This document shows, one piece after another, positions 1 to 19,118 of a stretch of DNA of 19,118 nt. Numbering within the stretch: the first letter of the stretch is position 1; the number at the start of each line of letters is the position of its first letter. This stretch comes from Candidatus Pacearchaeota archaeon (GTDB lineage Archaea > Nanoarchaeota > Nanoarchaeia > Pacearchaeales > GW2011-AR1). The translations under genes were made by a program, and so were the position numbers. The DNA is taken from contig NZAS01000235.1 of the NCBI GenBank assembly GCA_002686195.1, positions 1-19,118 on the forward strand. The letters run 5' to 3'. The notes under the pieces were generated by a model. The model was not told where the DNA came from. It saw nothing but the letters and a program-made list of their open reading frames with translations, and searched no databases.

Positions 1-1440
1 CTTGGTCCTGGCGCTCCGTTTACAATATTGACAGTTGCAAACTCATCAACTCAGGCACAGATTCTTTTTAGAGAAATAAAAGATAAAATGCTGAGATCTC
101 CATATTTTGCAGATAAATTATCATCAGATAAAATGAACCAGGATTCAATTAATCTATTAACTCCGGCAGATAAAAAACAAAATGAAGAATTTAAGAAGAG
201 AGGACTGCCAACCTCTCCAGGTTCTGTTGAAATTAGATGTGGACATTCCAATTCAGATACATTAGCTGGTATAGGTTGTTTTTGTCTATTACTTGATGAG
301 ATTGGTTTGTATAAACAGACTGCTGGCGCAAGTGGCGGAGACGCAATCTTTAGAACATTAACCCCTGCTGTTGCAACATATGTTAGAAAGGAAGATATGT
401 TAGACGAAAAGGGAAATCAAGTAATTGATGACGATGGTAAGGTTGTTCAAAAAGAAATTTATGATGGTAAAATTATATGTATTTCATCACCACGTGGTAA
501 GGAGGGGATCTTTTATGAATTATATAGACATTCTCCAGACGTAAAGCACAGATTAATGTGTAGAATGCCTACTTGGAAGGTTAATCCAAGTCATACAGAA
601 GAATCTCTTCATAATCTTTTTCCAGAGATGACGGAAGAAGAATTTTCTATGGAATTTGGAGCAACGTTCTCGGGAACCGCTGGTCAAACATTCTTTTCTA
701 GAGACCTTATTGAACGTGCATTTAAAAACAATTTAAAGCTAAAATCTAATGGAGAGCCAAATGCAAAATATTTCATGCATTTAGATCCAGCTACTAGCTC
801 TCATAACTATGCACTAACAATTTGTCACAAAGAAAGATTTATTAATGAAAAAACAGGAAAAATGGATTGGAAGGTTGTGTTGGACCACGTAAAGTACTGG
901 ATACCAAAGCCAGGTCAACCTATTGTTAATAGGGAAATTGAAGATTATATCTTATATATTAGTAGGAGATTTTATTTAGCTTTAGTAACTTTTGATCAAT
1001 GGAATTCTACAGAATCTATTAATAGACTTAGGGAATATGGAATCCCAGCAAAGATGACTAGGTTTACAAAAAGATATAAAATCATTATTTATGACAATCT
1101 TTATAATTTAGTATCTGCAAATAAAATAGATCTCCCACATCACGAATTATTAAAAAATGAAATGTTATATCTTCAAAGGAGATATTTACCAACAGGATAT
1201 AGGGTTTTTGCCAAAAAAGATGGATTAGTTAGAACTGATGATCTGGTTGATTCCTTAGCTGGATCAGCGTATATGTCTATAGAAGAGGAATCAAACGGTT
1301 TACCTAAAGGAAAATTAGTGCGATTTGATGTATATTCAAATAATAACATGGTTTGGAATGGAATGCAGGGACCCCTCGGTATGGGACCTGGGTCTAGAGT
1401 TTCCAACGAATTAAATAGAAAATCTCCAAGGAGATTTTAA
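1..1440 (+). CDS. Terminase large subunit, 5'-truncated by window edge
   Basis: This is the ATP-driven DNA packaging motor and headful/cos nuclease that docks on the portal. The frame is open from base 1, so the N-terminus (Walker A region) lies outside the window; an internal TTG at 28 is not a real start. Counting residues from base 1, a hydrophobic strand ending in D99-E100 (LLLDEIG) is the Walker B motif, and SSPRGKEG (about 162-169) is the ATPase coupling motif. The C-terminal half reads as an RNase H-like nuclease with acidic residues at D262 (HLDPATS), D332 (TFDQWNS) and D413/D414/D417 (RTDDLVDSLAG). The gene ends in TAA and is followed closely by the next gene. The family assignment is from recognisable motifs; which terminase subgroup it belongs to cannot be told here. 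Confidence 0.94.
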   Translation, partial: LGPGAPFTILTVANSSTQAQILFREIKDKMLRSPYFADKLSSDKMNQDSINLLTPADKKQNEEFKKRGLPTSPGSVEIRCGHSNSDTLAGIGCFCLLLDEIGLYKQTAGASGGDAIFRTLTPAVATYVRKEDMLDEKGNQVIDDDGKVVQKEIYDGKIICISSPRGKEGIFYELYRHSPDVKHRLMCRMPTWKVNPSHTEESLHNLFPEMTEEEFSMEFGATFSGTAGQTFFSRDLIERAFKNNLKLKSNGEPNAKYFMHLDPATSSHNYALTICHKERFINEKTGKMDWKVVLDHVKYWIPKPGQPIVNREIEDYILYISRRFYLALVTFDQWNSTESINRLREYGIPAKMTRFTKRYKIIIYDNLYNLVSANKIDLPHHELLKNEMLYLQRRYLPTGYRVFAKKDGLVRTDDLVDSLAGSAYMSIEEESNGLPKGKLVRFDVYSNNNMVWNGMQGPLGMGPGSRVSNELNRKSPRRF

Positions 1441-2541: not shown

Positions 2542-2547
2542 TCTCTA

Positions 2548-3054: not shown

Positions 3055-3081
3055 AGGGACTTTAACTTTAAGGAGATTATT

Positions 3082-4586: not shown

Positions 4587-4587
4587 A

Positions 4588-4881: not shown

Positions 4882-5237
4882 CAAGCATACTTAACATTAC
4901 AATAATAGATACTAAACCCGTCACCAACAACGCTGTGCCCAATAAAAAACTATGGTATGACGCTAGCTCTAAAAAAATGATAGAGATTGATGGTGAAATC
5001 GGATTCAACTACAGTAAGGGTGAATTGAACGTTGTTTCTAAAAACATACAGCAAACAAAGTCAAATAAATCAAACATTAATGTAATGGATAGAATCGAGA
5101 GAGATTCTGACATTTTAGTGTTAGGTAAATATAAATATAATAATAAAACCATCATTACAATTGAAGTGTCAGATGAGGACAAAAAAGACCTATGTGATAT
5201 GTTGGATGATTTTAGAGTGAACTATTACGATGGGTGA
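4878..5237 (+). CDS. Hypothetical protein, 119 residues
   Basis: A small protein that I do not recognise. It is predicted to be mainly beta strands at the start (MTSILNITIIDTKPV) followed by a polar middle and an acidic C-terminus (VSDEDKKDLCDMLDDFRVNYYDG). The ATG at 4878 overlaps the previous stop as ATGA, and the gene overlaps the following ATG at 5230 by 8 bases, so it is translationally coupled on both sides. No signal or membrane segment is present. Coupling to the winged-helix-like gene and to the DUF192 gene suggests the three are made together. Confidence 0.78.
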   Translation: MTSILNITIIDTKPVTNNAVPNKKLWYDASSKKMIEIDGEIGFNYSKGELNVVSKNIQQTKSNKSNINVMDRIERDSDILVLGKYKYNNKTIITIEVSDEDKKDLCDMLDDFRVNYYDG

Positions 5238-6153
5238 TATTAAGTTTTTAAATATAGAGGTTGCAAAAACTCCACAACAACTGCAGAAGGGTTTAATGTT
5301 TAGGGAAAAACTATCAAGCAACAATGGAATGATATTTTCTTTTCCAAAAGATGATGTGTTAAGTTTCTGGGGAATGAATACATTTATTCCATTAGATATA
5401 GCTTTTATAGATAACTCTAATAAAATAGACTCCATTCAAAGAATAAAGCCTCACGATTTAACATCTGTAAAAAGTAAAAATAAATGTTGTCATGCAATAG
5501 AGGCAAACGAAGGGTGGTTTGATAGAAATGGTATTTCTAATGGTGATTTTGTTGAGATTTTTGAAGACAACCTAGGAAATTCTCCAAAGGTGTTTTTTAT
5601 CAAAAAGCAATCTTCAGTAAAGACTGCTCAACTAGACAGTGATGATGTCGATGATCTATCCGAACCAACTAATGAAGAATTGGATCTTATTTCAAGAGAC
5701 GAGTTCCTGAACGATTCTAACCCATCAGAATCCAACTACCTAGTTGATAATGAAGGTTTTGTTGATGATGAGTCAGATGTAACATTGGAGGAATTAGATG
5801 ACGCTATTGATGGAGCGAGGGAGTATTTAGACAAACCGTCAGATAAGAAGGATGAAACCAAGGGGGTGCCAACTGATTTAGCTCATATACCAAGATTTGG
5901 AAGTGTATTTCAGGCTATTAATTGGGGAAAAGAAAACAATCAAACAATGTTAATAAAATATAAAACGATTAAGGGAAATATAATTTCGAGAGAAATTGAG
6001 CCCCATGATCTGTTTTTTGCAAAAACAACACGTAGGCAGGTAATGGCAACATTTGATAGGCAGGTAGGAGCACCAAGGTCTTTTATTGTAATGAATATTC
6101 TTGAGTACTCTTTTAATGGAGTTGAGTTTACTCCTAAGTTTATAGTAATTTAA
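5230..6153 (+). CDS. DUF192 protein with C-terminal WYL-like domain
   Basis: A 307-residue, three-part protein. Residues about 3-112 match DUF192: an early strand (IKFLNIEVAKTP), GLMFRE at 21-26, GMIFSF at 33-38, and FWGMNTFIPLDIAFID at 46-61 (the family more usually has W-M-K-N-T). DUF192 proteins are small beta folds, often exported in bacteria, and have no settled biochemical role. Residues about 128-212 form an acidic linker that begins with the window's recurring K-T-A-Q motif (131-134). Residues about 226-300 resemble a WYL domain: a strand (MLIKYKTIKGN), R-E-I-E-P-H-D-L and a final strand pair (RSFIVMNILEY). WYL domains bind ligands or nucleic acid in bacterial regulators. There is no signal peptide, so a virion or assembly role is likely, by position. 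The WYL assignment is tentative. Confidence 0.85.
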   Translation: MGDIKFLNIEVAKTPQQLQKGLMFREKLSSNNGMIFSFPKDDVLSFWGMNTFIPLDIAFIDNSNKIDSIQRIKPHDLTSVKSKNKCCHAIEANEGWFDRNGISNGDFVEIFEDNLGNSPKVFFIKKQSSVKTAQLDSDDVDDLSEPTNEELDLISRDEFLNDSNPSESNYLVDNEGFVDDESDVTLEELDDAIDGAREYLDKPSDKKDETKGVPTDLAHIPRFGSVFQAINWGKENNQTMLIKYKTIKGNIISREIEPHDLFFAKTTRRQVMATFDRQVGAPRSFIVMNILEYSFNGVEFTPKFIVI

Positions 6154-6169
6154 AAAGGCGATATTAAAT

Positions 6170-7702
6170 ATGAATGATAAAATCATTAAAATCTTAAAAA
6201 TAGCGTCCAAACTGGATGGTGCTGGTTTTAAGGACCAAGCATCAAGCTTGGATAAGTGCGCATCAAATCTCAATCTAATTAAACAAGCTCAATATGATGG
6301 AGTCCAGGGTTATTGGGTTAGAAACTCAAGATGCTGGCAAAATTGTTATAGACAAAAAAGGTCTAGCAATCCAGACAAACCAATCCAGGAAGTCTGGAAT
6401 GATTGTCATAGTGAGTTTATTGGCTCCTTATATGGAGGTGAAGGTTCAGATTGGGGCAAGTATGCTTCCCAATCTAATGATATTAAAATCGCGTCAAAAG
6501 ATCAAGCCAAGTTAATAAATACCCAGTTTGATAAGATGATGGATGATCTTATGGCTAGTGGAGAAAATGTTGAGTCTGCCGTCGCAGGTGCTATTATTAA
6601 GCAATGCTCAAGCTATACTGACTTGGTGTCTGAAATTTCAATATCTATATTAAAAGTTGCAGAAGATATAAAGTCCAATAACATGTCAGATGCAATGTCT
6701 CTTGTTGATGTTAGTGGAGCTTTAACGAAAGAAGCTCAGGGGTTCTTTAGAAAACTATTAGACACATTAAAGGGTGGCGTTTCTTATGGGAAAGATGCCA
6801 TTGGTGATTCTAGAGTAAGGGGGACTTTAGAGAGACTGTCAGACAATGCAGTTGCTCAACTTCAGAATTTTTATGATGCAATGAAGGGATTTAATGACGT
6901 GGTTCAGGAGACATTAAATGTTGCAAGGACAGCCACAGATTCAGGAAGTGCAAGATTAAAAGATGCTGGAGAGGAAACAATACAGCTTTTAGATAATGTG
7001 TCAATACAATATGACATTCGTCCAGTTTTAGATAGAATTAGAAATCTACCATATTCGAGGTGGACGATTCCCAATGAAGATGTTGGTTTATCTGAGAGTG
7101 ATCCTATGCCATCATTAGAAGAAGGTGTAGGTTCTTTGCCCGACACTATAGAAGACAGTGGTGCAGTTGGGAGCGATGTTGATATAGACACTGAAGTATC
7201 TCCATCTGCAAGCTCAGGAAGTCCAAGTGAATTTATTTCTGACAACATAGATACCGCAAAAGATGTTGCTACAACACTTCTAAATAATATGAATCAATCA
7301 GAAGAAGGACAAGAACAAATAATGAAGTTAATTAGTGGATTAGGAATTAGAATGTCTAGCCTTAATGATTTGTCATTTAATCTAAAAAAAGAATCTCAAT
7401 TTAGAGATCAATCAGCAATGTTGGAAAAAGAAAGAAGCATGGATGCCTTAAGGGCACAACGTGATGCCATTAAAGATAGACCTAAAAAAGAGATGGATAT
7501 GAAAAAAGACATGATGATGGGTTTGGTAAAACGTAATCCATATAGATTTTTAACAGAATTAATGAATATTTTAGGTAAAAGTCAATTTATCTCATTCTTA
7601 AATAATGCAGTAAAAGATGACGCATCGAGAGGTTCGGGCGGAAGATTCAGGAAAAAAATAAAAGGAACATTTGAGGACATAGGAGGATCTTTAGATCTTT
7701 AA
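6170..7702 (+). CDS. Large hypothetical virion/assembly protein
   Basis: A 510-residue protein with no named family that I can assign. The start is helical: residues 10-33 read KIASKLDGAGF...ASSLDKCASNL, an L-D-x-x-G...A-x-x-L-D pattern. Residues about 45-98 are a Trp/Cys-rich module (C55, C59, C79, with several W) that may be a small independent domain. The middle is predicted helical, then about 300-355 is an acidic Ser/Pro/Gly linker, and the C-terminal 150 residues are helical, Met- and Lys-rich, ending in a basic loop (GSGGRFRKKIKG). Short K-E-A-Q and K-V-A motifs recur, as in its neighbours. It starts 16 bases after the preceding stop with AAGGCG at 6156-6161 upstream. A tape, core or scaffold role cannot be settled from sequence. 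Confidence 0.85.
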   Translation: MNDKIIKILKIASKLDGAGFKDQASSLDKCASNLNLIKQAQYDGVQGYWVRNSRCWQNCYRQKRSSNPDKPIQEVWNDCHSEFIGSLYGGEGSDWGKYASQSNDIKIASKDQAKLINTQFDKMMDDLMASGENVESAVAGAIIKQCSSYTDLVSEISISILKVAEDIKSNNMSDAMSLVDVSGALTKEAQGFFRKLLDTLKGGVSYGKDAIGDSRVRGTLERLSDNAVAQLQNFYDAMKGFNDVVQETLNVARTATDSGSARLKDAGEETIQLLDNVSIQYDIRPVLDRIRNLPYSRWTIPNEDVGLSESDPMPSLEEGVGSLPDTIEDSGAVGSDVDIDTEVSPSASSGSPSEFISDNIDTAKDVATTLLNNMNQSEEGQEQIMKLISGLGIRMSSLNDLSFNLKKESQFRDQSAMLEKERSMDALRAQRDAIKDRPKKEMDMKKDMMMGLVKRNPYRFLTELMNILGKSQFISFLNNAVKDDASRGSGGRFRKKIKGTFEDIGGSLDL

Positions 7703-7792
7703 TGATAATCAAAAAAGGGTTTTTTAAAATAAAACTCAATTTATAATTAAACTATAGTTTCATAATCTTAAATTAAATAAGGAGAAATGCGC
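7703..7792 (+). promoter_or_regulatory. Regulatory-looking spacer with TATAAT and palindrome
   Basis: This 90-base AT-rich gap is the most regulatory-looking spacer among tightly packed genes. It holds TATAAT at 7742-7747, a good bacterial -10 hexamer, but the -35 region (around 7719-7724) is only T-rich and poor. The perfect 12-base palindrome aaactatagttt at 7749-7760 follows directly and could be an operator. An A6-GGG-T6 inverted repeat at 7711-7725 is too weak to be called a terminator. It plausibly begins a new transcript for the acidic structural genes downstream. Confidence 0.4.
7779..7784 (+). promoter_or_regulatory. Ribosome-binding site that decides the start at 7793
   Basis: AAGGAG at 7779-7784 is a near-perfect Shine-Dalgarno site. 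It is only 2 bases from ATG 7787 but 8 bases from ATG 7793 in the same frame, so translation most likely begins at 7793. Confidence 0.75.
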
Positions 7793-8356
7793 ATGAAATT
7801 TGTTAGTAACAAAATTTATTTACAAGACTCACCAAAGACATTTGGGGATCTTTGTAAAGAAGCTTCATTAAAGAATGAAGAAATGACTAAGGTAGCTCAG
7901 GCTGAAATTGCTGAAGCACCAGTAGTTGAACCAGTGGTCGAATCAACAGACTCTGGAGATCAAGGTGTTCCAGAAGAGCTTATGGATGCACTTAGCGAGC
8001 TAAAAGACGCTGAATCATCAGAAATTCTTGCCAGCGATACTGATCCGTTAAAGGTTGCTTCTATTGATTCCAATGACGACGGAACAGTAACTGTTAGCTT
8101 TGATAAGAGCGCGGGAATAGAAGAACTTCTAGCTGAACTTGAGGAAGATGAAGGCGGAGAACCTGCAGAGGAAGAGTGTCTAGAGTGCTCCGATGGCGAA
8201 GAAGAAATAATCGAAGAGGCATGTGCTTATGCTAATGATTATGGAAAATTTGTTAAGGTCGCAAACCTTACAGATAGTCAAAAAGATTATTTTAAATCTT
8301 ATTGGGCTTCAGTTTGGCCAGAAGGGTATATTGACTCTCTTCTTATAGATCAATAA
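7793..8356 (+). CDS. Acidic hypothetical protein, possibly scaffold/core-like
   Basis: A 187-residue, strongly acidic protein; start chosen at ATG 7793 from ribosome-binding-site spacing rather than ATG 7787. The N-terminus (MKFVSNKIYLQD) is followed by K-E-A-S and K-V-A-Q motifs, then a long Glu/Ala/Pro/Asp-rich region with a strand-like segment (DGTVTVSFDKSAG) and two cysteines in an acidic stretch (ECLECSDGEEE). The last 35 residues (FVKVANLTDSQKDYFKSYWASVWP) look like a compact helical domain with conserved-looking aromatics. Acidity, small size and location before the portal are reminiscent of prohead core or scaffold proteins, but no homology is claimed. It is the first gene after the spacer at 7703-7792. 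Confidence 0.82.
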   Translation: MKFVSNKIYLQDSPKTFGDLCKEASLKNEEMTKVAQAEIAEAPVVEPVVESTDSGDQGVPEELMDALSELKDAESSEILASDTDPLKVASIDSNDDGTVTVSFDKSAGIEELLAELEEDEGGEPAEEECLECSDGEEEIIEEACAYANDYGKFVKVANLTDSQKDYFKSYWASVWPEGYIDSLLIDQ

Positions 8357-8374
8357 AAAACAGTAGGAGTTTTT

Positions 8375-8950
8375 ATGTCTTTTTTACCTGTTGGACGTAG
8401 GCGTCCAATGCAATCTCAAGTGTTTAAAACTGCTCAGGATGATTTTAATTTACCTGAGTTAGATTCTGATTATATGTCTGGAGTAAATATTCCAGTAGAT
8501 TTTTCTAATCAGCCACAAGATGTTAGCAATGAAGCTAGTATCGATGAGGAAGATTTAAAGTCATCTATCTTTCAAAGTCTTGAAGATATAGGGCTGTCGC
8601 CTAGAGTTATAAGAGAGAAGCATGATAGTATTTTTAGCCAAACTCTTAAAAGTGATGGAAGTCTGTCTGGATTTTTCCTTATTCCAACATTTACGGCAGA
8701 GGGAAAGATATCTATTAAGAAAGCAACAGATATGGCAAATAGCATTTCAACTAAATACTCTTTAGAGTGGCAAATAGAAGAGGTCAACAATAACTATAAG
8801 GTTAAATTTGATACGATGAAACAGGAATCAGCTCCAGAGAGTTCATTTGACCAATTGGGTGGTAAGACACCAAAAACAGCAAGTGTTCTTTCTGAGTTGC
8901 TTGAAGAGAGAAAAAATTTATTATATAACAAATTAAGGAATCTACAATAA
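8375..8950 (+). CDS. Hypothetical protein with KTAQ motif
   Basis: A 191-residue protein of unknown function. AGGAG at 8364-8368 precedes the ATG. The N-terminus has GRRRPMQSQVFKTAQDDF, carrying the recurring V-F-x-x-x-K/T-A-Q type motif (K-T-A-Q encoded at 8426-8437). An acidic linker follows. Residues about 60-150 appear folded, with alternating helices and strands (SGFFLIPTFTAEGKISIKKATDMANSI, then LEWQIEEVNNNYKVKFD). The C-terminus has another K-T-A-S motif and a charged helix (SELLEERKNLLYNKLRNLQ). The stop TAA shares one base with the next ATG (TAATG), indicating coupled translation. Confidence 0.82.
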   Translation: MSFLPVGRRRPMQSQVFKTAQDDFNLPELDSDYMSGVNIPVDFSNQPQDVSNEASIDEEDLKSSIFQSLEDIGLSPRVIREKHDSIFSQTLKSDGSLSGFFLIPTFTAEGKISIKKATDMANSISTKYSLEWQIEEVNNNYKVKFDTMKQESAPESSFDQLGGKTPKTASVLSELLEERKNLLYNKLRNLQ

Positions 8951-9636
8951 TGCTTTTTAGAAATCAAGATCAACATAATAGCTCTATTTTTGGAGATGCT
9001 TTAGAACGTATTGCATCTGAATTGGATACAGCAAAAATGGATTTATCAAATACTCCAAAACAAAATTTGGATCCAAACGATTTTATAGGTAATAAAAACT
9101 CAATTATACCATCAACCTCTGAAGATTCTATAAATGCAAAGACATCATCAAGTCACATGGGGACATCTAGGTCTGCTTTGATGTTTGATAAGGACATATA
9201 TAATTCAATATCAGAGGATTCACGAGAAAAAACAGCACGATTAAAAGGTGAGGATAACTTTTCTCGCAAGGAAGCTCAAGACTCATTTGAATTACTTAAT
9301 AAGCCATCTGAAGAGGAAGAAGGTATTCTTATTCAAAAGAGCTCTTCATCACTGGTTTCTACTTCGGCAGATGAAGATAGTAGTGGATTAGTCCCCGGTC
9401 ATGAAAATAGTATTTTTGATAGTGAGGCATTTGAGAGATTAAATATTCATAGCGCAGAGTTAAAAAAAGATGTGCAGAAGGAAGCTAATTCAAGTCCAAT
9501 ATCAAAACAAATCACATCTAGCGATATAGTTGATGGTTTGTATTCAAAGTTAGAGTCTAATGAGGTAGATAGATCTACTTTTACCGAAAAAACATTAGAC
9601 AATTTATACAATCTAATAAAAAACAATGAGGGATAA
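8950..9636 (+). CDS. Ser/Glu-rich hypothetical protein
   Basis: A 228-residue polar protein, probably largely disordered, with no recognised domain. It begins MLFRNQDQHNSSIFGDALERIASELDTAK, whose helix resembles the A-x-x-L-D pattern of the 510-residue protein upstream. It contains K-T-A-R and K-E-A-Q motifs in the middle and a helical C-terminus (DIVDGLYSKLESNEV). The start overlaps the upstream stop by one base, with AAGGA at 8935-8939 upstream. The start of the next gene lies two bases after its stop. A structural or assembly role is inferred from context alone. Confidence 0.8.
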   Translation: MLFRNQDQHNSSIFGDALERIASELDTAKMDLSNTPKQNLDPNDFIGNKNSIIPSTSEDSINAKTSSSHMGTSRSALMFDKDIYNSISEDSREKTARLKGEDNFSRKEAQDSFELLNKPSEEEEGILIQKSSSSLVSTSADEDSSGLVPGHENSIFDSEAFERLNIHSAELKKDVQKEANSSPISKQITSSDIVDGLYSKLESNEVDRSTFTEKTLDNLYNLIKNNEG

Positions 9637-9637
9637 A

Positions 9638-10630
9638 ATGACATTTAATCTATCTAAACATTCTCAACTAGAAACACTAGACGCTCCAATGCCTGAACCA
9701 GCATTGGATAGCATGGAGTTTGAAGTAGGGGAAGAAACCTTAATGAGAGACGAGGATAATGTAGAAAAGATAAAAGATCATGCCCACTTAAGGGATACTT
9801 TGCTTTCTATGACCGTTGAATCAGCAAATGATGCTTTCGTGTCAAAAGTTGAAGACAACTCAGTTGTTGATGAAGAAAGTGGCTCTATAGTAAATCCAAA
9901 ACAAACAATAAAAGATGGGATTCAGAGATTCTTTTCTCCTGGATTAACCCCAGAAGATCAATTAGATATATCTGATAGTATATTTGATTCACTCCCACTT
10001 TCATTTAAGAGTGAAGAATATTCTCAGCCAACAATGACGGGAAACGAAACAGAAGTAGTCGCAAGTATCGTTTCAGATACAGATCTTCTTATTTCCAAGA
10101 TCGCATCGAGTTTGTCTAAGTTGAAGTCAAATGATAATAATCAGGTTTTTAACCTATCAAAAACAGCTCAAGCTCATGCTTTTCAACATAATATGTTTCT
10201 TTATGGTCCAGAACAAACCAGAATCTCTCCTTTTACTGGAGATATTCAATCTGGATTGCATTTAATTGAACAAAATAAAGGTTTTGGTCTTAAAATTGAT
10301 GATATTTTAGATATTGATTTTGAAGCTATTTGGAGAGGTAATATTATGGATAAATATTCTCGTCCATATAAAAACGAAAAAGGAGAATGGGTTGGTGGGT
10401 ACATTAACAAGAGATTTGAAGTTAACCAATGGGTCCCTGAGGGAAACAATCTTCAAATAGCACCCAACCGAAGAGGTAGACCATATATGCCAGAATATGG
10501 AAATTATGAAGCAAGATTTGAGGCGGCAAGGGGTCAGAAAGATAGACTAAGCGACCCTCTAGAGATAGGTGAAATAAAACTTTCTTCTAGTAACAGGGTT
10601 TTTAACCTCTCAAAAAAAAAAGATAGCTGA
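9638..10630 (+). CDS. Structural-type protein ending at an A10 frameshift site
   Basis: As read, this is a 330-residue protein. ATG 9638 is preferred over the in-frame ATG 9626 because GAGGGA (9628-9633) precedes it and because it follows the upstream TAA. The first 170 residues are acidic and linker-like. The region from about residue 170 to 310 looks well folded and conserved in style, with aromatics and Gly turns (MFLYGPEQTRISPFTGD, WRGNIMDKYSRPYKNEKG, GRPYMPEYGNYEARFEAARG). The motif (T/V)FNLSK occurs three times: at the N-terminus, at 10145-10162, and at 10598-10615. Just after the third copy the frame meets ten A and stops at TGA 10628. The adjacent frame continues with coding quality to 10850, so the natural product is probably about 403 residues. 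Function unknown. Confidence 0.82.
   Translation: MTFNLSKHSQLETLDAPMPEPALDSMEFEVGEETLMRDEDNVEKIKDHAHLRDTLLSMTVESANDAFVSKVEDNSVVDEESGSIVNPKQTIKDGIQRFFSPGLTPEDQLDISDSIFDSLPLSFKSEEYSQPTMTGNETEVVASIVSDTDLLISKIASSLSKLKSNDNNQVFNLSKTAQAHAFQHNMFLYGPEQTRISPFTGDIQSGLHLIEQNKGFGLKIDDILDIDFEAIWRGNIMDKYSRPYKNEKGEWVGGYINKRFEVNQWVPEGNNLQIAPNRRGRPYMPEYGNYEARFEAARGQKDRLSDPLEIGEIKLSSSNRVFNLSKKKDS
10612..10621 (+). other. A10 homopolymer, apparent frameshift or slippage site
   Basis: Ten consecutive A separate the 330-residue frame from a downstream frame. Reading nine A (a one-base loss, or a +1 shift) joins them without a stop: FNLSK-K-IAEKTASNL. This may be a sequencing or assembly length error, a true mutation, or programmed transcriptional slippage on the homopolymer. 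The sequence alone cannot separate these. Confidence 0.75.
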
Positions 10631-10850
10631 AAAAACGGCTTCAAACCTGGTTCCCAAATTAGATATCTTTAGACCTGACCCTCAAGATGGTTCAGCGAAT
10701 ATGTATAAAAACATGGCAAAAACCTGCCCTGTTTGTCATTCTATGTGTTCTGCGGATTCTTTAAAAAATAATAATAAGTGTCACAATTGTTCTGCAGATC
10801 TTTCTGGCGTAAAAATAGAGTTAGTAACTGGAAAATCCCCGAAAAAGTAG
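10620..10850 (+). CDS. Zinc-ribbon C-terminal extension in shifted frame
   Basis: These 76 codons, ending in TAG at 10848-10850, lie in the frame +1 relative to the gene at 9638. They read as a natural continuation: KIAEKTASNLVPKLDIF, then a zinc-binding ribbon with C-P-V-C, a further Cys four residues on, and C-H-N-C, ending in a basic tail (GKSPKK). The paired CxxC spacing is that of rubredoxin-like or treble-clef zinc ribbons. The K-T-A-S motif of the neighbouring proteins is present. A separate 49-residue gene from ATG 10701 is possible, but no ribosome-binding site precedes it. I favour the view that this is the C-terminus of the upstream gene, which then ends 18 bases before the portal start. 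Confidence 0.7.
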   Translation, partial: KIAEKTASNLVPKLDIFRPDPQDGSANMYKNMAKTCPVCHSMCSADSLKNNNKCHNCSADLSGVKIELVTGKSPKK

Positions 10851-10868
10851 AATAGGTAGTAGTATAGA

Positions 10869-13800
10869 ATGGCAAAAGAGTCTAATAAAAAACAAAGCAA
10901 TATAAAAGAGTCATCATCACAAGGCTCAATAAAGACTGGTGCACCAGTATCTATATCTATTGGGAATGAGTATGCAAATAGTGCTTCCATTCATATGCCA
11001 TTAACTAAGGCGGCTCAATTTATGGGAGGATCTCCATCGACTGTTTTTACACAGCCTATGTTCTTTTCCCCATTGCACACTCCTCAGTCTTGGCAGATAG
11101 CAAGTAAAAGAAAAGAAGTTTATCAATGGTCTAGGTTCTATTATGAAAATGAGCCAAAAGCTGCTGCAGGTATAGATTTTTATTGCTTTGACCCAACAAC
11201 TCCCATATTAATGGCTAATGGATCACAGAGATCTATTAGTTCTATTGACGAGGGTGATGCTGTTAGATCTCATGACGGAACTGTTGGGATAGTAGATAAG
11301 GTTCATAAAAAGTATACAGAAGAGAATTTATATTATATAAATATATCTGGAGTTAATAATGGATCACTTAAAGCAACAGGGGGGCATAGTGTTCTCGTGT
11401 CTCGTGATGAAGATATACGATGGATGGATGTCTGTGACTTGCAAAAAGGCGATTATTTATTAACTCCTTGTAATTACGAGGCTGCATATGGGCAATCTGA
11501 AAAATTTTCCATATCAGAAGATATGGCATGGTTATTGGGCATTTATGCTGCAGAGGGGTGTGGGATTCCATATGACCATGTTAGTAAGAGGGGAAAAAAG
11601 ACGTCTAGATATCGCGGTGTATATTTTACACTACATAGGGATGAAGTTGACCTGGCTATTAAGATAAAAAATTTGGTTGATAAGATGTATCCAAATCTTA
11701 GTATAACGTTCAATCAATTAGAAGACAAGAAAGTACTACGCGTAGCCGTCTATGGAAAAGAGATATCAGACGATTTAATGGGGCTTTGTCCTGGGACGTC
11801 TAGCGATGATGGGTCGAAGAGAATTATTTCGTCCGTAATGAAGTCTAAGAATAGTATTTTGTTCCATTTATTATCTGGTTTTCTTGAAGGGGATGGGTGT
11901 TTTAATAAAAACAATGGGTTCCAGGGTGTTGGTGTGACAAAGACCTTATGTGAACAAATGTGTAATTTATGTGACAGACTTGGGATTGAACACTCATTTA
12001 CCAGTACTAGGATAAGTAGAGAGAACAGGCAAACGTGCTATAATATTCGGATATCTAGGCGGGCATGTAGCGTATTCGAGGATGTTAATAACAAACACTA
12101 CACAGCTACTGTTGACGAGTCTAAGATTCGCAATACTCCATATTTTGCAAATGGAAAGTATATTTATAGAAAAATAATATCCATTAAACAAAAGCAATAT
12201 CAAGGGGATGTGTATGACTTAACTGTTAAGGGGTCTCATACTTATATTGCAAACAGGGTCTCTGTTCATAATTCAGGATTTCCTATGAATGGATTCAAGG
12301 TAGAATGCAAAGATAGGAAGGTTCAAATATATTTTGAGGATGTAGTTAAGAGTTTAAATCTGGATTATTGGTTTAAGAAGATAAGTCACGAATATTTCTT
12401 GTTAGGCGACGTTTTTGTGTTTACTGAAATTGAGTGCCCAATTTGCGGTGGAGGTGGAATAAATCCATCTGATGGTTCTCAATGTAATCACCCCGATGGA
12501 TCTATAAAAAAGATATTAATCTTAAATCCAGATTTTATAGAAGTTCAGAGTAATCAATTGGCGGACGATCCAGTTGTAAGTCTTATACCAGATGATGATT
12601 TAAAAAGAATTATAGCATCTAGAAAGCCAGTTGAGATTTATGAAAGAATACCAGACAATATAAAAGAGTTAGTTGCTGCAGGAAGACCTATTCCACTTTC
12701 TTCAAGATGTGTTAGTCACTTAAAACACAAAGGGTCTCCATATGGAACATACGGAGAATCTTTACTTAGACGATTGTTTATGGTTATCGCATATAAGACA
12801 AAGCTAATGACTGCAAATTGGATAATGGCTGAAAGGCATGTTTTACCAATACGTATTGCGAAAGTTGGCGAAACTGCGCGTCCAGCAAGTGGCGATGATA
12901 TTGCAGATGTTCAAGAGCAGTTGGCTGCAGTGGCAAATGATCCAAACCTAACTATAGTAACACATCATGCTTTTGATTTAGATTTTGTTGGCGCAACGGG
13001 CAGAATACATAATATAGCTCCAGACCTTGAATATGTAGGGAAGGAAATGCTTGATGGGCTCATGCTTAATCAATCATTATTAAATGGAGAAATGCAATCT
13101 TACAGTGGAGCCGCCGTTGGTGTTGAAACTATGATTAGGAGATTGGAATCGTGGAGGCAGGAACTTTCACACTGGGCAGAGATAAATATATTCTTACCAA
13201 TAGCTCAAATGCAGGGATTTATTGATGCTGAAAAAACAGAAATACTTGGCAAGCCACAGTATCTTTATCCTAAAATAAAATGGAACGATCTAAGGTTAAG
13301 GGACAATTCAAACCATTTACAGCAAATACAACAACTTCATGATAAGGGTGTTGTTTCTACTCAAAAATTATGTGAAGAATATGACTTAGATTATGATTTA
13401 GAGATTAAGAGAATAAGAGAAGAACAGGTAATGTCAGGTAAAGGTGGCATGATTTCAGGTGCAGCAGGTGCAGTCGGTGGACTTGATGGAGATATGGGCA
13501 TGGGCATGGGTATGGATATGGGAATGTCGGGAGGAGCACCTTCACTTCCAGGTGGAGATATGGGCGGGGGTATGGATGTAGATATGCCAGCTATGCCCGG
13601 AGGAGATATGGGTGGTGGCATGGATATGGGTGGCAGCATGGGCGGAGGTATGGACGGCATGGCGGCGTCGTCTTTCGATGACAAAATATACAAAAAAGGC
13701 AAAGCTCCAAAGAAAGAAGAAGTTAAGGTCTCTGCTGACGTTAAAGCTCCTATTTTTCTAACAAAGCCCGAACAAAAATTATATAATATTATAGTATCTA

Positions 13801-14216
13801 TGAGGTTGCCATATAAGGTTTATGCGCAGTTTAAGCAGTTCTCTCCAGGGAATAGTCAACCGTATTTGTTAGATTTTGCTATTCCAGAAATAGGTATAAA
13901 TTTTGAGGCGGATGGGGCAAGATGGCATTCTGACATAGAATCTGTAACTAGAGATAGAAAAAGAGATTTAAAATTAGCATCTCTAGGTTGGCGAGTCGTA
14001 AGAGTAAAAGAAGATGCACTTAACAATAAAGCGGACTTAGTCCAACAGGTTGTAAAAAATAATATAGAAGAGGCAATTCACGAGAGGCAGGAATTACTTA
14101 AAAAATCTGATAATAACAATGAAAGTCTATTAAAGTTCAGCTCTAGTGAGAAGGACTTTAATGACTATTTCATAGTGAAACCGGTTATTATAGATAATGA
14201 TAAAAATATCAGCTAA
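10869..14216 (+). CDS. Portal protein with intein and C-terminal nuclease domain
   Basis: A 1115-residue precursor. The portal is the dodecameric vertex ring through which DNA is packaged. N-extein residues 1-105 end ...AAGIDFY; the intein is residues 106-468; the C-extein starts at S469 (SGFPMNGFKVE), so splicing gives a 752-residue protein. The post-intein part contains a stem/clip-type region with a small Cys cluster (C523, C526, C539, H541), the conserved-looking GTYGESLLRRLFMVIAYKTK, and a long helical segment with SGAAVGVETMIRR. Residues about 855-935 are a Gly/Met-rich linker. Residues about 960-1065 resemble a Vsr/DUF559 (PD-(D/E)XK-type) nuclease: E968, D1002, E1013, D1015 and H1020, then RDRKRDLKLASLGWRVVRV. 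This domain is not a normal portal part. The C-terminus is a polar tail. The start ATG has no strong ribosome-binding site. The portal assignment is from architecture and gene order. Confidence 0.85.
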   Translation: MAKESNKKQSNIKESSSQGSIKTGAPVSISIGNEYANSASIHMPLTKAAQFMGGSPSTVFTQPMFFSPLHTPQSWQIASKRKEVYQWSRFYYENEPKAAAGIDFYCFDPTTPILMANGSQRSISSIDEGDAVRSHDGTVGIVDKVHKKYTEENLYYINISGVNNGSLKATGGHSVLVSRDEDIRWMDVCDLQKGDYLLTPCNYEAAYGQSEKFSISEDMAWLLGIYAAEGCGIPYDHVSKRGKKTSRYRGVYFTLHRDEVDLAIKIKNLVDKMYPNLSITFNQLEDKKVLRVAVYGKEISDDLMGLCPGTSSDDGSKRIISSVMKSKNSILFHLLSGFLEGDGCFNKNNGFQGVGVTKTLCEQMCNLCDRLGIEHSFTSTRISRENRQTCYNIRISRRACSVFEDVNNKHYTATVDESKIRNTPYFANGKYIYRKIISIKQKQYQGDVYDLTVKGSHTYIANRVSVHNSGFPMNGFKVECKDRKVQIYFEDVVKSLNLDYWFKKISHEYFLLGDVFVFTEIECPICGGGGINPSDGSQCNHPDGSIKKILILNPDFIEVQSNQLADDPVVSLIPDDDLKRIIASRKPVEIYERIPDNIKELVAAGRPIPLSSRCVSHLKHKGSPYGTYGESLLRRLFMVIAYKTKLMTANWIMAERHVLPIRIAKVGETARPASGDDIADVQEQLAAVANDPNLTIVTHHAFDLDFVGATGRIHNIAPDLEYVGKEMLDGLMLNQSLLNGEMQSYSGAAVGVETMIRRLESWRQELSHWAEINIFLPIAQMQGFIDAEKTEILGKPQYLYPKIKWNDLRLRDNSNHLQQIQQLHDKGVVSTQKLCEEYDLDYDLEIKRIREEQVMSGKGGMISGAAGAVGGLDGDMGMGMGMDMGMSGGAPSLPGGDMGGGMDVDMPAMPGGDMGGGMDMGGSMGGGMDGMAASSFDDKIYKKGKAPKKEEVKVSADVKAPIFLTKPEQKLYNIIVSMRLPYKVYAQFKQFSPGNSQPYLLDFAIPEIGINFEADGARWHSDIESVTRDRKRDLKLASLGWRVVRVKEDALNNKADLVQQVVKNNIEEAIHERQELLKKSDNNNESLLKFSSSEKDFNDYFIVKPVIIDNDKNIS
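11184..12272 (+). mobile_element. Intein with LAGLIDADG homing endonuclease
   Basis: A 363-residue in-frame protein intron in the portal gene. Splicing blocks are clear: Cys1 (C106 of the precursor, CFDPTTPILMANG), block B with the conserved His (ATGGHSVLVSRD, H173), block F (YDLTVKGSHTYIAN) and block G ending V-H-N at 468, followed by Ser+1. Two LAGLIDADG motifs lie at 222-230 (LLGIYAAEG) and 334-343 (LLSGFLEGDG) with acidic residues retained, so the endonuclease may be active. The insertion falls between AAGIDFY and SGFPMNGF, a conserved-looking portal segment, as is typical for inteins. Confidence 0.92.
13431..13674 (+). repeat. Gly/Met-rich low-complexity linker in the portal
   Basis: About 81 residues of repeated M-G, G-G-M-D and P-G-G-D-M-G units separate the portal body from the C-terminal nuclease-like domain. 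The 17 bases ccaggtggagatatggg at 13548-13564 recur exactly at 17641-17657 in the protease-scaffold gene, so the two genes share this linker type. The DNA is much more GC-rich than its surroundings. Confidence 0.85.
13749..14068 (+). other. Vsr/DUF559-like nuclease domain at the portal C-terminus
   Basis: The domain lies at residues about 961-1066 of the portal precursor. It carries the order of acidic and His residues seen in Vsr-type and DUF559 nucleases: a helix with E968 (TKPEQKLYN), D1002 (YLLDFAIP), E1013-x-D1015-G (NFEADG), W1019-H1020, a following R-D-x-x-R-D, and the strand LGWRVVRV. Conserved catalytic residues suggest an active fold of the PD-(D/E)XK superfamily. EDxHD-type homing endonucleases share this fold, so it could be a captured homing nuclease. 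Activity is not proven. Confidence 0.75.
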
Positions 14217-14610
14217 AAGAATTAAAGATCGAGGAATAAGGTGGGAAGAGTCTTATACAGAAAGGACTAAGCCACTTCATGATCGATATTTTGAAAAAAT
14301 AGGTCCTGGCTCATATTATAGGTGGGAAGGTCATGATTATACTACTGACTCAGACTATTACATAGTTGTATCCCCTGCAAAGACCAAGGACGAAAAAAAG
14401 AGATTTTTTGCTGGTATTAAAAAGCTTCCACCAATTCATAAGAGAGATATTGCCAAGGTATATAGTCCATACGGGGAATATTTTACTTCAATAAAAAGTG
14501 CTTTAAGTTTTGTAAATGAAAGATATGGAGTTTTTTTCCCTAAGGGGCAAGCTGCATATACGATTAATCATTTACAGGGCATTAAAATTCCAAGACACGT
14601 AAAAGGATAA
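14197..14610 (+). CDS. Hypothetical protein, 137 residues, between portal and protease
   Basis: A small basic protein, not recognised. It overlaps the last 20 bases of the portal gene. It is rich in Tyr, Lys and Arg throughout; the middle has a short strand (DYYIVVSPAKTKDEKKRFF) and the C-terminal part (YSPYGEYFTSIKSALSFVNERYGVFFP) looks like a compact alpha/beta fold ending in IPRHVKG. No cysteine cluster and no membrane segment is visible. Its position between portal and maturation protease suggests a head-assembly role, which is inference. Confidence 0.8.
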   Translation: MIKISAKRIKDRGIRWEESYTERTKPLHDRYFEKIGPGSYYRWEGHDYTTDSDYYIVVSPAKTKDEKKRFFAGIKKLPPIHKRDIAKVYSPYGEYFTSIKSALSFVNERYGVFFPKGQAAYTINHLQGIKIPRHVKG

Positions 14611-14616
14611 TAAATT

Positions 14617-17600
14617 ATGTCTTTCAAAAAATATTCTAAAACGATTGACGCATCAAACATCCAGCCACTTAATATTCCAACTGGATCAGAATGTGATATG
14701 TATTCATTCGATGAATTTAAAAAGATTGCATCTATGGTAAAGTCCGCTCCAACCGATTTGGGTGGATTTGACATTGAATCTGCAAAAAATAAAAACCCAG
14801 ATCACTTGTTTGTAAAGGTATTTGCAATAAGAGAAGATGAAGTAAATGATAATGGAGACTTATTTAGTGCAGATATTCTTAAGGAATCAGCTCATACATT
14901 TATCGGCGTTCCAGTATTTGTTAATCATCAGAATGATGACATAGAAAAGGCGAGAGGGAAAGTTGTTCATGCTTGGTATGATGCAGATAAGGGTGGTATT
15001 TATACTATTAATATGGTTGACAAAGTTGCTTATCCAAAACTTGCAAGAGGTATTGAGGAAGGATATATAACTGGAAGTTCGATGGGGGCAAAAGTTGGTT
15101 ATTCCATATGTAGCGTATGCCATAATAAAGCAGCAAATCCAACTGATTTTTGTTCACATATAAAAGAAAGAAAAAATAAGTTATTTAGTGGAGATATTAA
15201 GTGCGCATTTCATGGAAATAATAATTCAACTAATGACGAATGTCCATTGTGCAAGAAAGCTCACGATAAAGAAAAAAACTTAACCCACGATAAACAAAAG
15301 GTATTTGAATATAATTACGATGTTAATTTTATAGAAGATAGTTTTGTTGTAAATCCAGCATGTCACGATTGTTTGGTGTGCGACATTCTTAATACAGATG
15401 AGGTTGAGGCTAAAATAGCCAAGATAAGAAGCAATGTTGATTCTTTAGTTAAGGCTGCTTCTGTGATGGACTCTGAAGAAAATAAATGTGATGGTACATG
15501 TTTGTTAAATAAAGAGGCTGGAGTTAAGGAGATTGGACATCTTAACGAGGCAATGAATTTGATGGAGAGAGTTGCAAGGTCTTTAATGGCTCAAAAAGAT
15601 AAGGTTTCAATGGAATATGTATCCGATATAGTCAAAACATTGGCAAATATACAGTCAACATCAGACGAGTTAATAGAGATGGGATATGCAGCTTTAAGTA
15701 GTCCAAATGAGAATCAAATAGCATATGGAACAACATCTGCAGCATCGCCTATTGATAAGGATAGAATAGGTCAATCCATGGACCCAAGTGCAATTGCAGG
15801 AGGGCAACCCCCTCAAGATCAGCCCCCTCAGCCACAATATTCTGTTGGAGATTCCTCTCAAGTAGAGTTTGGTGACGATGTTGGGGTTGTTACTAAACCA
15901 ACTTTTATTAAGTCAACTTCCGAAAATAAGAAGGATTTATTAGAAAAAACGGCAAGGATTAAACAATACATATTAAATATAAATAAAAAAGCAAAAGAAA
16001 TTAATAATTCATTAGGAGTAAATGGAAAAAAAGTGTCAGAAAAAGATTTAACTGAAACTTATATAGCCCAAGAGGGTGATAACTCTGTCGTCATTGGAGG
16101 AGACTCTAATGGGGAAGTTTTTGTTTCGTATTATAAAGGTGATAACTTACTAAAGTTTGAGTCGGTCAATAGTTTAGACGATGATATGAAACAGGCTATA
16201 GGTAATGACATAAAGGCTGCTGCGAATACCTTTTTGCAACAGTTTTTAAATAAAACATCAACAACTAAAAACGAGGAGATTGTTGTGAGCGAGAATATTA
16301 AAAATGCACAGACACCAGATGATGGCAAAGAAGTCACATCTCAGGTGGTAACCGAAGGTCAGTTTGAAGATACTGATCTTACTTATCATTCAAGAACGAA
16401 TGATTCTCCAGAAACCATTCAAGAGAGTGATGACAGGTTGGGTGGTTCTTTTAGTTCAGATGTAAATAGTGGCACTCCAGCAGTGCGCACAGATTCATCT
16501 GAGACTATTACTGAGGATCAACTTACAAGTCCAGGAGGATATCTTGCTCGTTGGGACGATTTCCCAGAAGTTATTACAGAAGCACAGTGGGATGATATGA
16601 GTCGTGCTGTTTCGCAGAAACTTCCGTCTGATTGGACAGAAGTGAACGGTGAAAGTCAACTTAATATGTTAAGAAATGATCACAGATGGGGTGATCCTGA
16701 AGTGATAACAGAATCACAATTGGGAGATCAGGGTGGAGCAACTTCTCGCTTTGCAAGCTTTGATACACCTCAATCTCTGATGAAGGCAGCATCTAATGCT
16801 GTTTCTGATGCAATTACTAAATATCATTTGTCTCCAAGACAAATTAAGTCAGCAATGACCTCAATGAACGAAACTCCTCATAGTCAATTGAAGTCAACAT
16901 ACCTCACTCTTATTAATGCCGCTCCATCAATTAGAGAAGCAAGAGATGAGGAGCTCGCACGCATCAGTTATTTTAACAAGAAAGCAAGCAAATCAACCTC
17001 ATTCAGCTCTGTTGATGGAGTTATTTCAGCAATTGCAGACAATGTCAAATGTGCCAATGTAGATAAGATAATAAAAGCATTTAACATTATAGTTAACGAT
17101 GATAATATGTTGGCTCATGTTGAGAACGACGCATTCTCTGCAGAAAAGACAATGGAAGTTAATGCTTCCTTAAACCTTGGGGATGATCTTAAGGTTGCCT
17201 TCTATGAAGGTCGAAGATCAGACGATGGGATGTATAAAATATGCGCCTCCCTTAATGAAGACATTAGTGCTGATACGTCAGACAAAAATAACTTTATTGA
17301 TGAAGTTATGAGTTTTTCACAAGATATGGTTCGTAAGAACTTTGGAGATATTGAAGTTACAGCTATGTCAATTGATGTAGATGAAGAAAATGGAATTGTA
17401 GAGTGTATTTGCAAGGACAATTCAATGCTTTCAGGCGAAGAAAAAACGGCATATGACAATTACATGAGTGTTAAAACTGCAAAAGAGGAATCAGATAGTC
17501 AAGAAAAGAAGGCATCAGATGAATCAAAGGCAATAAGTCGAGATGCAGTTATTGATGCTCTTAAGAAAGAATCTCAGCTAATGGGTGGACAAATGCCTGC

Positions 17601-19118
17601 GGGACTTAATCCAGAGGGTATGGGGGCGGGAATGCCGATGCCAGGTGGAGATATGGGTGCTCCAGAAGGTATGCCGGGAGCAGAAGCATTTAGTATGGAC
17701 ACTCCCCCAGCTTCGCTTGGTATGCCAGGTGAAGAAGAAGCTGCAATGGACGAAGAATTCGATGGCAAACCTAAACCTCCAGGTGCTATTTGCTTAATCT
17801 GTGGAAACAACGATTGTGATGTTTCTGGCGGAAAATCAAAGTCAAACGTATCTGGTTTAAATTACACAATTAAGGTTATTCCAGACTCAAGTCTATTAGA
17901 CAGCATTGCTGATGGGACCATAGATGAGAGTGATATGGGTGGTGACGAAGAAGATGCAACTGGAATGGGTGTTGAAATGCCTATGCCAGGTCTTCCTGTT
18001 GCTGCAATGACAAAATTAACTCCAGATGTTGTTGAAAAATATGCATCAGTTAATCCTATTGGGTCAATATCTCCTATATCAGGAACAACAAATACAGTAA
18101 AGCTTGATAACACAACATGGCAATGCTTAGATAGCAATCAAACTTACAACGTAAAGGTTGCTGCTGCTACAGATGACCCAAGTGGAATATATGTTCAATG
18201 GGAATGGATTCCATCTGTTAAGGAAGCATCTTGCAGTTCATGCAAGAGAGCTAGAAACAGCGTTGAAGGAGCATTAAAAAGACTTGGGATATCAAGAAAT
18301 GACTTTGACTCAATGGATCTCGAATCAAAAGGTAAAGCTCTAGATGCTATTCATGCTCACGGATTGATTGATCATCAAAAAGAAGCAAGTACAGAAAACT
18401 TGTTAGACAATTTTAAGGTTGCTTATACAGTTCATGGTGACTTCCCAATGGAATCATGTTTAGATAAAATTAGTAGAAAATTTGGAGAAAATGCTCTTGC
18501 ACTTTCTGGTCCATGTGAAGGTAAGAATCTTCCAGAGTGTGTATGTAAGTCTCTTTCTGGAGTAAGAACATATAACTCAAATCTTGCAGTGAAAGTTGCA
18601 GAGGTTTGGTCAGAAAAAGAAGCATCGATTGAATGTGTAGAAGACTTCATTAGAATGGGTCACGATCTAGACAAATCAGCTTCAATTTGCGATATGCTCA
18701 AATCAGCATATAGATCTGATGAAGAAGCGTTTGCAAATGAGCTTTCTAAAGTGTCAATGGATGATAATGATGGTGAATACTTCGAAGATACAGAGGAATT
18801 AGATCCATTTGATTCTTCTGAAGATGAACCTCAAGGCGAGGATCTTTCAGGTGAAGATGCTCTTGAGCAAATTAGAGAAATACTTGAGAACCTTTCTGAT
18901 GAAGATTTAGATCTTGATGAAGACGGGTCAGATATCTCAGACTTGTCTGACGATGAAGATCTTGACCTTGACGGTGAAGAGATGGAGTCAGAAGGTGATG
19001 AGGAAACATCTCTTGTAGAAGTTGAAGAGGAAGACCTTGAGGAAGACCTTGAGGAAGACCTTGAGGAAGACCTTGAGGAAGACCTTGAGGAAGACCTTGA
19101 GGAAGACCTTGAGCTTGA
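14617..19118 (+). CDS. Prohead maturation protease fused to a giant acidic scaffold-like tail, 3' end missing
   Basis: The frame is open from ATG 14617 (AGGA at 14604-14607) to the window edge without a stop, so the protein has at least 1500 residues. Residues about 60-165 are a prohead serine protease of the assemblin-like type: H104 (VFVNHQ), then GYITGSSMGAKV with S155 as the probable nucleophile. A Cys/His-rich insert follows (C165, C168, C179, H181, C196, C209, C212, C249, C252, C255). Downstream are helical segments, an array of six V-I-T-E-x-Q-type repeats (about 577-700), a Met/Gly/Pro-rich linker, a Cys motif (ICLICGNNDCD), a CSSCK module, and finally a strongly acidic region ending in E-E-D-L repeats. 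Head proteases are normally 200-400 residues, so this is a protease-scaffold fusion or polyprotein, presumably self-cleaved on maturation. Protease is confident; the tail role is inferred. Confidence 0.88.
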   Translation, partial: MSFKKYSKTIDASNIQPLNIPTGSECDMYSFDEFKKIASMVKSAPTDLGGFDIESAKNKNPDHLFVKVFAIREDEVNDNGDLFSADILKESAHTFIGVPVFVNHQNDDIEKARGKVVHAWYDADKGGIYTINMVDKVAYPKLARGIEEGYITGSSMGAKVGYSICSVCHNKAANPTDFCSHIKERKNKLFSGDIKCAFHGNNNSTNDECPLCKKAHDKEKNLTHDKQKVFEYNYDVNFIEDSFVVNPACHDCLVCDILNTDEVEAKIAKIRSNVDSLVKAASVMDSEENKCDGTCLLNKEAGVKEIGHLNEAMNLMERVARSLMAQKDKVSMEYVSDIVKTLANIQSTSDELIEMGYAALSSPNENQIAYGTTSAASPIDKDRIGQSMDPSAIAGGQPPQDQPPQPQYSVGDSSQVEFGDDVGVVTKPTFIKSTSENKKDLLEKTARIKQYILNINKKAKEINNSLGVNGKKVSEKDLTETYIAQEGDNSVVIGGDSNGEVFVSYYKGDNLLKFESVNSLDDDMKQAIGNDIKAAANTFLQQFLNKTSTTKNEEIVVSENIKNAQTPDDGKEVTSQVVTEGQFEDTDLTYHSRTNDSPETIQESDDRLGGSFSSDVNSGTPAVRTDSSETITEDQLTSPGGYLARWDDFPEVITEAQWDDMSRAVSQKLPSDWTEVNGESQLNMLRNDHRWGDPEVITESQLGDQGGATSRFASFDTPQSLMKAASNAVSDAITKYHLSPRQIKSAMTSMNETPHSQLKSTYLTLINAAPSIREARDEELARISYFNKKASKSTSFSSVDGVISAIADNVKCANVDKIIKAFNIIVNDDNMLAHVENDAFSAEKTMEVNASLNLGDDLKVAFYEGRRSDDGMYKICASLNEDISADTSDKNNFIDEVMSFSQDMVRKNFGDIEVTAMSIDVDEENGIVECICKDNSMLSGEEKTAYDNYMSVKTAKEESDSQEKKASDESKAISRDAVIDALKKESQLMGGQMPAGLNPEGMGAGMPMPGGDMGAPEGMPGAEAFSMDTPPASLGMPGEEEAAMDEEFDGKPKPPGAICLICGNNDCDVSGGKSKSNVSGLNYTIKVIPDSSLLDSIADGTIDESDMGGDEEDATGMGVEMPMPGLPVAAMTKLTPDVVEKYASVNPIGSISPISGTTNTVKLDNTTWQCLDSNQTYNVKVAAATDDPSGIYVQWEWIPSVKEASCSSCKRARNSVEGALKRLGISRNDFDSMDLESKGKALDAIHAHGLIDHQKEASTENLLDNFKVAYTVHGDFPMESCLDKISRKFGENALALSGPCEGKNLPECVCKSLSGVRTYNSNLAVKVAEVWSEKEASIECVEDFIRMGHDLDKSASICDMLKSAYRSDEEAFANELSKVSMDDNDGEYFEDTEELDPFDSSEDEPQGEDLSGEDALEQIREILENLSDEDLDLDEDGSDISDLSDDEDLDLDGEEMESEGDEETSLVEVEEEDLEEDLEEDLEEDLEEDLEEDLEEDLEL
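16345..16722 (+). repeat. Array of six V-I-T-E-x-Q linear motifs
   Basis: Within the protease-scaffold frame the units QVVTEGQF, ETIQESDD, ETITEDQL, EVITEAQW, TEVNGESQL and EVITESQL are spaced about 20-30 residues apart, often preceded by a short R/W-rich segment. The shared core is (V/I)-(T)-E followed by a small or polar residue and Q. T4 gp21-type proteases cut after (I/L)-x-E, so these are candidate maturation cleavage sites. Confidence 0.7.
19027..19110 (+). repeat. Seven 12-bp tandem repeats encoding E-E-D-L
   Basis: The unit gaggaagacctt occurs seven times in exact tandem, encoding (EEDL)7 at the end of the acidic tail. The window ends 8 bases later in GAG CTT GA. Copy number may be collapsed or the sequence broken by assembly. 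Confidence 0.95.

Follow-up and report, generated by a model that had tools for sequence, protein, structure and literature searches.

The window, a stretch of 19,118 nucleotides spanning positions 1 to 19,118 of contig NZAS01000235.1 (assembly GCA_002686195.1, filed as Candidatus Pacearchaeota archaeon), encodes a phage portal protein precursor that carries an intein and ends in a nuclease-type domain. The precursor is read from a single open frame with Pfam matches to portal, intein and DUF559 families. Its parts are listed below by window position and strand, with residue numbers of the precursor; the counts beside the active-site residues refer to 59 nuclease domains and to 164 unique fused domains, in that order where both are given.

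10869..14216, + strand: portal protein precursor with intein and C-terminal nuclease, 1115 amino acids
10869-11183, + strand: portal core, first part
11184..12272, + strand: intein with a LAGLIDADG-type domain, residues 106-468 (C106 to HN468, then S469); PF14890 E-value (E) 1.5e-16, PF14528 22.7 bits
12273..13436, + strand: portal core, second part, residues 469-856; PF06074 at residues 612-838; solved portals match the modelled core of the relative L004
13437..13757, + strand: low-complexity Gly/Met/Asp-rich linker, residues 857-963; 31 Gly and 17 Met among 107 residues
13758..14081, + strand: DUF559/Vsr-type (EDxHD-like) nuclease core, about residues 964-1071
13770..13772, + strand: E968, presumed first acidic active-site residue; 59/59 and 164/164
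13872..13874, + strand: D1002, presumed metal-binding Asp; 59/59 and 164/164
13905..13913, + strand: E1013-A-D1015 of the EADG motif; E 164/164, D 161/164
13926..13928, + strand: H1020, nearly invariant; 59/59 and 163/164
13953..13955, + strand: D1029, nearly invariant; 59/59 and 163/164
14082..14213, + strand: C-terminal tail after the nuclease, residues 1072-1115; low model confidence

An earlier note on this DNA, made from the letters alone, had proposed a portal and a Vsr/DUF559-like nuclease in one protein, and the continuous frame together with the profile scores bore this out. The portal part scored 30.9 bits with the Mu-type portal family PF06074 (curated Pfam cut-off 23.9), while DUF559 (PF04480, curated cut-off 20.6) reached 27.8 bits with the complete protein and 31.8 bits with the excised domain. 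The Gly/Met-rich linker that the note had described joins the two, and the residues it had named (E968, D1002, E1013-x-D1015, W1019-H1020, R1028-D1029-x-x-R1032-D1033 and L1039-GWRVVRV) were all present and correctly numbered. The match to MTES_1575 (PF18741) stayed below its cut-off (27.4 bits for the whole protein and 30.9 for the domain against 38.2), and the NCBIfam vsr profile gave 19.5 bits against a cut-off of 97.85, which places the domain outside the narrow Vsr mismatch endonuclease class. The relative L004 matched the portal family phrog_16240 (E 2e-44). The gene sits between the large terminase and prohead protease genes, and its profile and the fold modelled for L004 agree in assigning it to the portals.

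The same order of portal, linker and nuclease was found in relatives of the window protein. Viral contigs were sampled in six scans, three of which reached 80 loci each, and the counts are samples, not frequencies. Of 11 loci in the first scan, 10 encoded an intein-less fusion and one (L013, 28% identity) had no nuclease; the intein-less relatives read straight through at the window's intein site. A protein search with a relative's nuclease region returned 35 proteins, all with PF04480 and 26 also with PF06074; among them, P0002 agreed with the query at 100% identity in the aligned part, and the C-terminal end of P0029 equals that of the window protein. The portal-core search gave 466 matches, with PF04480 in 116 of the best 120, and our own profiles found the nuclease in 118 of 121 retrieved database proteins. 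The three without it (P0039, P0042 and P0105) all look truncated, P0084 stops after the first half of the domain, and the open reading frames (ORFs) of L053, L076, L095, L100 and L109 run off the locus. Some database sources label such fusions 'very-short-patch-repair endonuclease', leaving the portal part unmentioned. The largest nuclease-bearing contigs measured 494,120 and 547,943 bases. The 206 records matched in the annotated phage collection all covered less than 80% of the portal-plus-nuclease query, the best being Bacillus phage G gp14 (33% identity over 59%, core) and an uncultured 485-kb phage; one scan of prokaryote genome contigs with two short patterns yielded 33 stretches and no relative. 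The earlier note had allowed for a reading error that fuses two genes. Such an artefact (frameshift, assembly join or misread stop) is refuted by the recurrence of the fusion in many metagenome contigs, counted as 69 unique ORFs and 118 of 121 database proteins, and retains next to no probability; that the fused nuclease-type domain is genuine is practically certain.

Related portals were found both with and without the domain. The 187 unique portal ORFs, which include the window and 55 loci from the P0145 scan scored together with all others, fell into 69 nuclease-bearing ORFs, 109 that are complete at the 3' end and lack the nuclease, and 9 that lack it but ran off the locus. In 96 of the 109 complete nuclease-free ORFs, at least 40% of the last 40 residues are Gly, Pro or Met, which suggests that the nuclease was joined to the end of a tail of a type that nuclease-free portals already had. 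A FastTree tree was built from the 175 rows that had sufficient core columns, namely 67 with nuclease, 104 without and 4 cut, and in it all 67 nuclease-bearing rows lay to the same side of a single branch (support 100, length 0.74). With the cut rows ignored, this unrooted tree holds one change, and its long branches, L002 foremost, were flagged; it points to one gain or one loss of the nuclease, a gain being likelier because more distant portals match over the core only. Inside the clade no nuclease-lacking portal was seen apart from the three truncated-looking proteins and locus-end ORFs. LR745208, one of the nuclease-free relatives, gave a weak nuclease-profile match (E 0.026) with one stop inside.

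The presumed active-site columns were 98-100% invariant among the 164 unique fused domains, whereas mean column identity across the 59 nuclease domains was 37%, and close pairs showed purifying selection. The E, D, H and D active-site residues were conserved in 164, 164, 163 and 163 of the 164 domains; which residues EDxHD denotes in Vsr is assumed here. The modelled domain found its best structural match in the homing-endonuclease catalytic domain I-Bth0305I (PDB 3r3p), followed by Vsr, and no chain named RuvC or endonuclease VII appeared among the 50 VIA-align rows for the domain, which excludes nothing. The family name EDxHD is the one given in the accessible part of PMC3943268. Profile search and structure prediction yielded a predicted nuclease fold with a conserved presumed active site, and together with conservation they back the domain type that the earlier note had read. 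It is highly probable that the domain is catalytically active. A Vsr-like fold reused without catalysis, to grip DNA or as a scaffold, may have a parallel in the similar RAP module of FASTKD4 and mitoribosomal proteins, but the invariance of the catalytic positions against the much lower mean identity would be unexpected for binding alone, and we consider this explanation rather improbable. The structural matches also include AbaSI and PvuRts1I, which are specific for 5-hydroxymethylcytosine, as would suit an enzyme that destroys unmodified foreign DNA mispackaged at the head entrance while modification protects the phage genome; Pfam showed no modification-sensing domain in the protein, and this role is given only a slight chance.

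The match to I-Bth0305I bears on the suggestion of the earlier note that an EDxHD homing nuclease had been captured. Homing-endonuclease families of PHROG and PADLOC were among the domain matches, and the free-standing relatives of the domain include proteins with Cys-pair motifs, read by the analyst as zinc-finger-bearing. The ancestry of the nuclease may therefore be homing-endonuclease-like, and as a statement of descent the suggestion fits. Present mobility does not: the DUF559 match was single in each of seven nuclease-bearing records tested, pairwise nuclease distances correlated with the core distances over 167 unique rows (Mantel r 0.80, reached by 0 of 999 permutations) and the tree holds one change. 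For these reasons the nuclease seems at present not to act as a mobile element in these phages, nor was a sporadic distribution independent of the portal gene found. A still selfish endonuclease would cut portal alleles lacking the domain and thereby help the fused allele to spread during coinfection. Its kinship with a phage homing endonuclease and with the PHROG and PADLOC families speaks for such behaviour, but in the window protein Pfam found no fused DNA-recognition (NUMOD-type) domain at E up to 1, and the nuclease-lacking portals seen in the clade are confined to truncated-looking proteins and locus-end ORFs; with the single copies and the distances that follow the core, selfish homing appears very unlikely.

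The portal itself is a hotspot for inteins. Of 190 unique nuclease-portals, 71 had one or more intein-like inserts, which lay at several sites of the core and within the nuclease motif. In 10 of the 190, an intein-like insert stood right after the catalytic Glu, with E-C-D-G at the junction (L033 at 2241-6593, L080, L083, L098 and L108; P0076, P0080, P0103, P0115 and P0117).

The position of the domain was considered on the model of the L004 portal (48 rows), which reached a mean predicted local distance difference test score (pLDDT) of 66.7 and a predicted template modelling score of 0.46. In ten-residue blocks, pLDDT was 63-94 at residues 71-250 and 381-480, 44-73 between them and 27-59 in the linker, where it stayed below 50 over most of the length. 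All 50 Foldseek rows listed were portals, and the core aligned with the portals of lambda, T4, SPP1, Mu and G20c. The aligned range ended at L004 residue 434-496 in the 50 VIA rows, which means that the linker starts after the last portal helix. Linker length had a median of 106 residues (range 84-136) among 190 unique relatives. Solved portals are twelve-fold rings whose C-terminal crown faces the head interior.

The neighbouring genes are as follows, and a set of structural-looking genes also lies around the portal.

1..1440, + strand: large terminase subunit, 5' end outside the window, first bases in the same reading frame; phrog_9 E 2.4e-13
14197..14610, + strand: companion gene of 137 amino acids overlapping the portal end; no Pfam match over cut-off and no PHROG match to E 0.1
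14617..19118, + strand: long protein that continues beyond the window end and has a head-maturation-protease domain; phrog_18299 E 3.8e-11, residues 91-209

The terminase has LDPAT, FDQWN and DDLVDSLAG, which we take to be its nuclease Asp motifs, and the idea that the portal nuclease replaces a dead terminase nuclease was dropped, since these motifs appear present. Of the 69 nuclease-portal loci, 67 had a member of the family of the 137-amino-acid gene and the remaining two are cut off by the locus edge; none of the 109 others had one. An unrelated upstream gene of 334 amino acids is equally clade-specific (57 of 69 nuclease-portal loci against 0 of 109), so the link of the 137-amino-acid gene may only mark the clade, and its reading as an immunity partner of the nuclease was rejected. 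The protease domain was found in both groups, at 53 of 69 loci with the nuclease and 30 of 109 without it (limited flanks). The gene at 5230-6153 starts with a DUF192 (COG1430) domain (PF02643 E 5.9e-27, residues 8-110).

A short motif, [LIVMFAST]xKxA[QSR], was enriched in the structural cluster of the window (2548-14610 and 14617-19118), with 24 occurrences against 1.8 expected; the same motif, scored in L003-L010 and L013, gave 34 against 2.1 in L010 and 14 against 2.2 in L013. In its form [LIVMFAST]xKxA[QSRN], it was present at the N-terminus of 125 of 190 portals (14.8 expected), in the linker of 30 (3.5 expected) and after the nuclease in 117 (5.2 expected), and it was absent from the linker of the window portal. 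The likely major capsid proteins (L315 3206-4096 and L316 6242-7138, identified by eye with no family search) had no such motif in their first 110 residues. At L315 3206-5867, this likely major capsid gene, of the L010 phage, appears to be followed or cut by a gene with a zinc-binding-homing-endonuclease-like start, an arrangement that, in a by-eye reading with no family search, suggests an intron or insertion. The KxA motif is a candidate protease or sorting signal.

The motif matters for the view that the nuclease is cargo, freed in the head by the prohead protease or leaving with the DNA, and ejected to cut host or competitor DNA early. A C-terminal crown-side position, given the topology of solved portals, would put the domain in the head, the next gene but one carries the head-maturation-protease domain, and the linker motif exceeds expectation. 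As a cleavage site the motif is only putative, and it is missing from the linker in 160 of 190 portals and in the window; it is commoner at the N-terminus and after the nuclease, where cutting would leave the nuclease attached. If the motif is a protease site, most portals would thus keep their nuclease, and a cargo role is considered unlikely.

The reading that we prefer, at about even odds, is that a clade of huge uncultured phages has a portal with a Vsr/EDxHD-type nuclease, very probably competent, that serves as a tethered processor at the packaging vertex. Such an arrangement suggests that DNA is cut at the packaging gate itself. Each ring would hold up to about twelve nuclease domains, in keeping with twelve-fold portals, tethered by flexible linkers of roughly 100 residues that leave the ring on the crown side. 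The tethered domains would cut or trim DNA handled by the packaging machine during head filling or completion, and the substrates could be branched, damaged or wrong DNA, or the genome end. That the domain acts in packaging or head maturation at all is put at slightly under an even chance.

In a bolder form, the portal ring itself would be the nuclease machine that clears branches and trims ends, replacing separate resolvases such as RuvC and endonuclease VII; we hold this to be unlikely. A circumstantial sign of such a branch-cleaving role is that RuvC was matched in 0 of 16 nuclease-bearing records and in 7 of 18 records without the nuclease (Fisher p 0.008, uncorrected for family number or relatedness). 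For endonuclease VII the counts were 1 of 16 and 2 of 18, with one match below cut-off, and in one scan the controls were also unmatched. RusA was absent from 11 records and Hjc from 20, and T7 endonuclease I gave no match over cut-off in 20 records, with two below it, one per group.

Several points weigh against the packaging-vertex reading and its resolvase form. One of the seven RuvC matches lies below its cut-off, only RuvC differed among the five resolvase families tried, and the contrast is confounded by clade in records that may be fragments and include repeats (the cores of L183 and L184 are identical over 424 amino acids, and L050 and L051 have equal portal scores). The nuclease-bearing record G003 has an endonuclease VII homologue, and G001, also nuclease-bearing, has a T7-endonuclease-I-like match below cut-off. 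The terminase's own nuclease motifs appear present, leaving no lost activity to replace, and the nuclease-free sister portals manage without the domain. Sequence alignment to the solved relatives matches the active site incompletely: opposite the His column, the 3r3p chain has Ala and 3hrl a position next to a gap, and the region that surrounds the first Asp of Vsr was aligned only with an insignificant score. By analogy with solved portals, a crown-side nuclease would lie beside the packaged genome and not at the motor entrance, which fits poorly with branch removal before entry and raises the question of self-damage.

The portal ranks with the most conserved components of tailed phages and is commonly regarded as a channel and a nucleus for assembly. 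That a nuclease has become fixed on it, under selection, in phages whose contigs reach up to about half a megabase implies that DNA is cut in connection with the head entrance, and it makes testable how very large genomes get cleared of branches or end-finished during packaging. One sister group of portals has the nuclease and the other lacks it, which provides a natural contrast, and the domain could be purified and assayed without phage culture. The earlier note knew of no portal with a nuclease, and our searches of the open-licence PubMed Central (PMC) literature likewise gave no description of such a fusion, from which subscription papers may differ; the accessible parts of PMC7824862, PMC10969951, PMC12619734 and PMC12363816 do not describe it.

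Compared with known systems, the window protein family has its core profile and fold in common with HK97/Mu-type portals (PF06074; phrog_16240), to which the nuclease-portals add the low-complexity linker of about 107 residues, the C-terminal nuclease and, in 71 of 190, inteins. The nearest nuclease-free relatives seen were Bacillus phage G gp14, LR745208 and L013-type portals (27-33% identity); nuclease-free portals differ in the absence of the nuclease from 109 complete unique ORFs and are mostly similar in their Gly/Pro/Met-rich end. Unlike I-Bth0305I (3r3p), whose chain has Ala in the His column, the portal domain has no DNA-recognition domains, is not intron-encoded, is single-copy in each record tested and is fixed in a structural gene. 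From Vsr (1cw0, 1vsr) it differs in scoring far below the NCBIfam vsr cut-off, and there is no reason to expect T:G mismatch specificity. T4 endonuclease VII, whose fold we take to be the His-Me finger, is unrelated in fold, and its association with the portal is non-covalent. According to the accessible part of PMC10893049, this enzyme (gp49) is associated with packaging proteins including the portal gp20 and releases stalled branched DNA. T4 gp4, in the accessible part of PMC7824862, is a restriction-fold (TnsA-like) nuclease needed for head morphogenesis. Both are precedents for nucleases at the packaging site, and the portal domain would be a covalent counterpart of one or the other.

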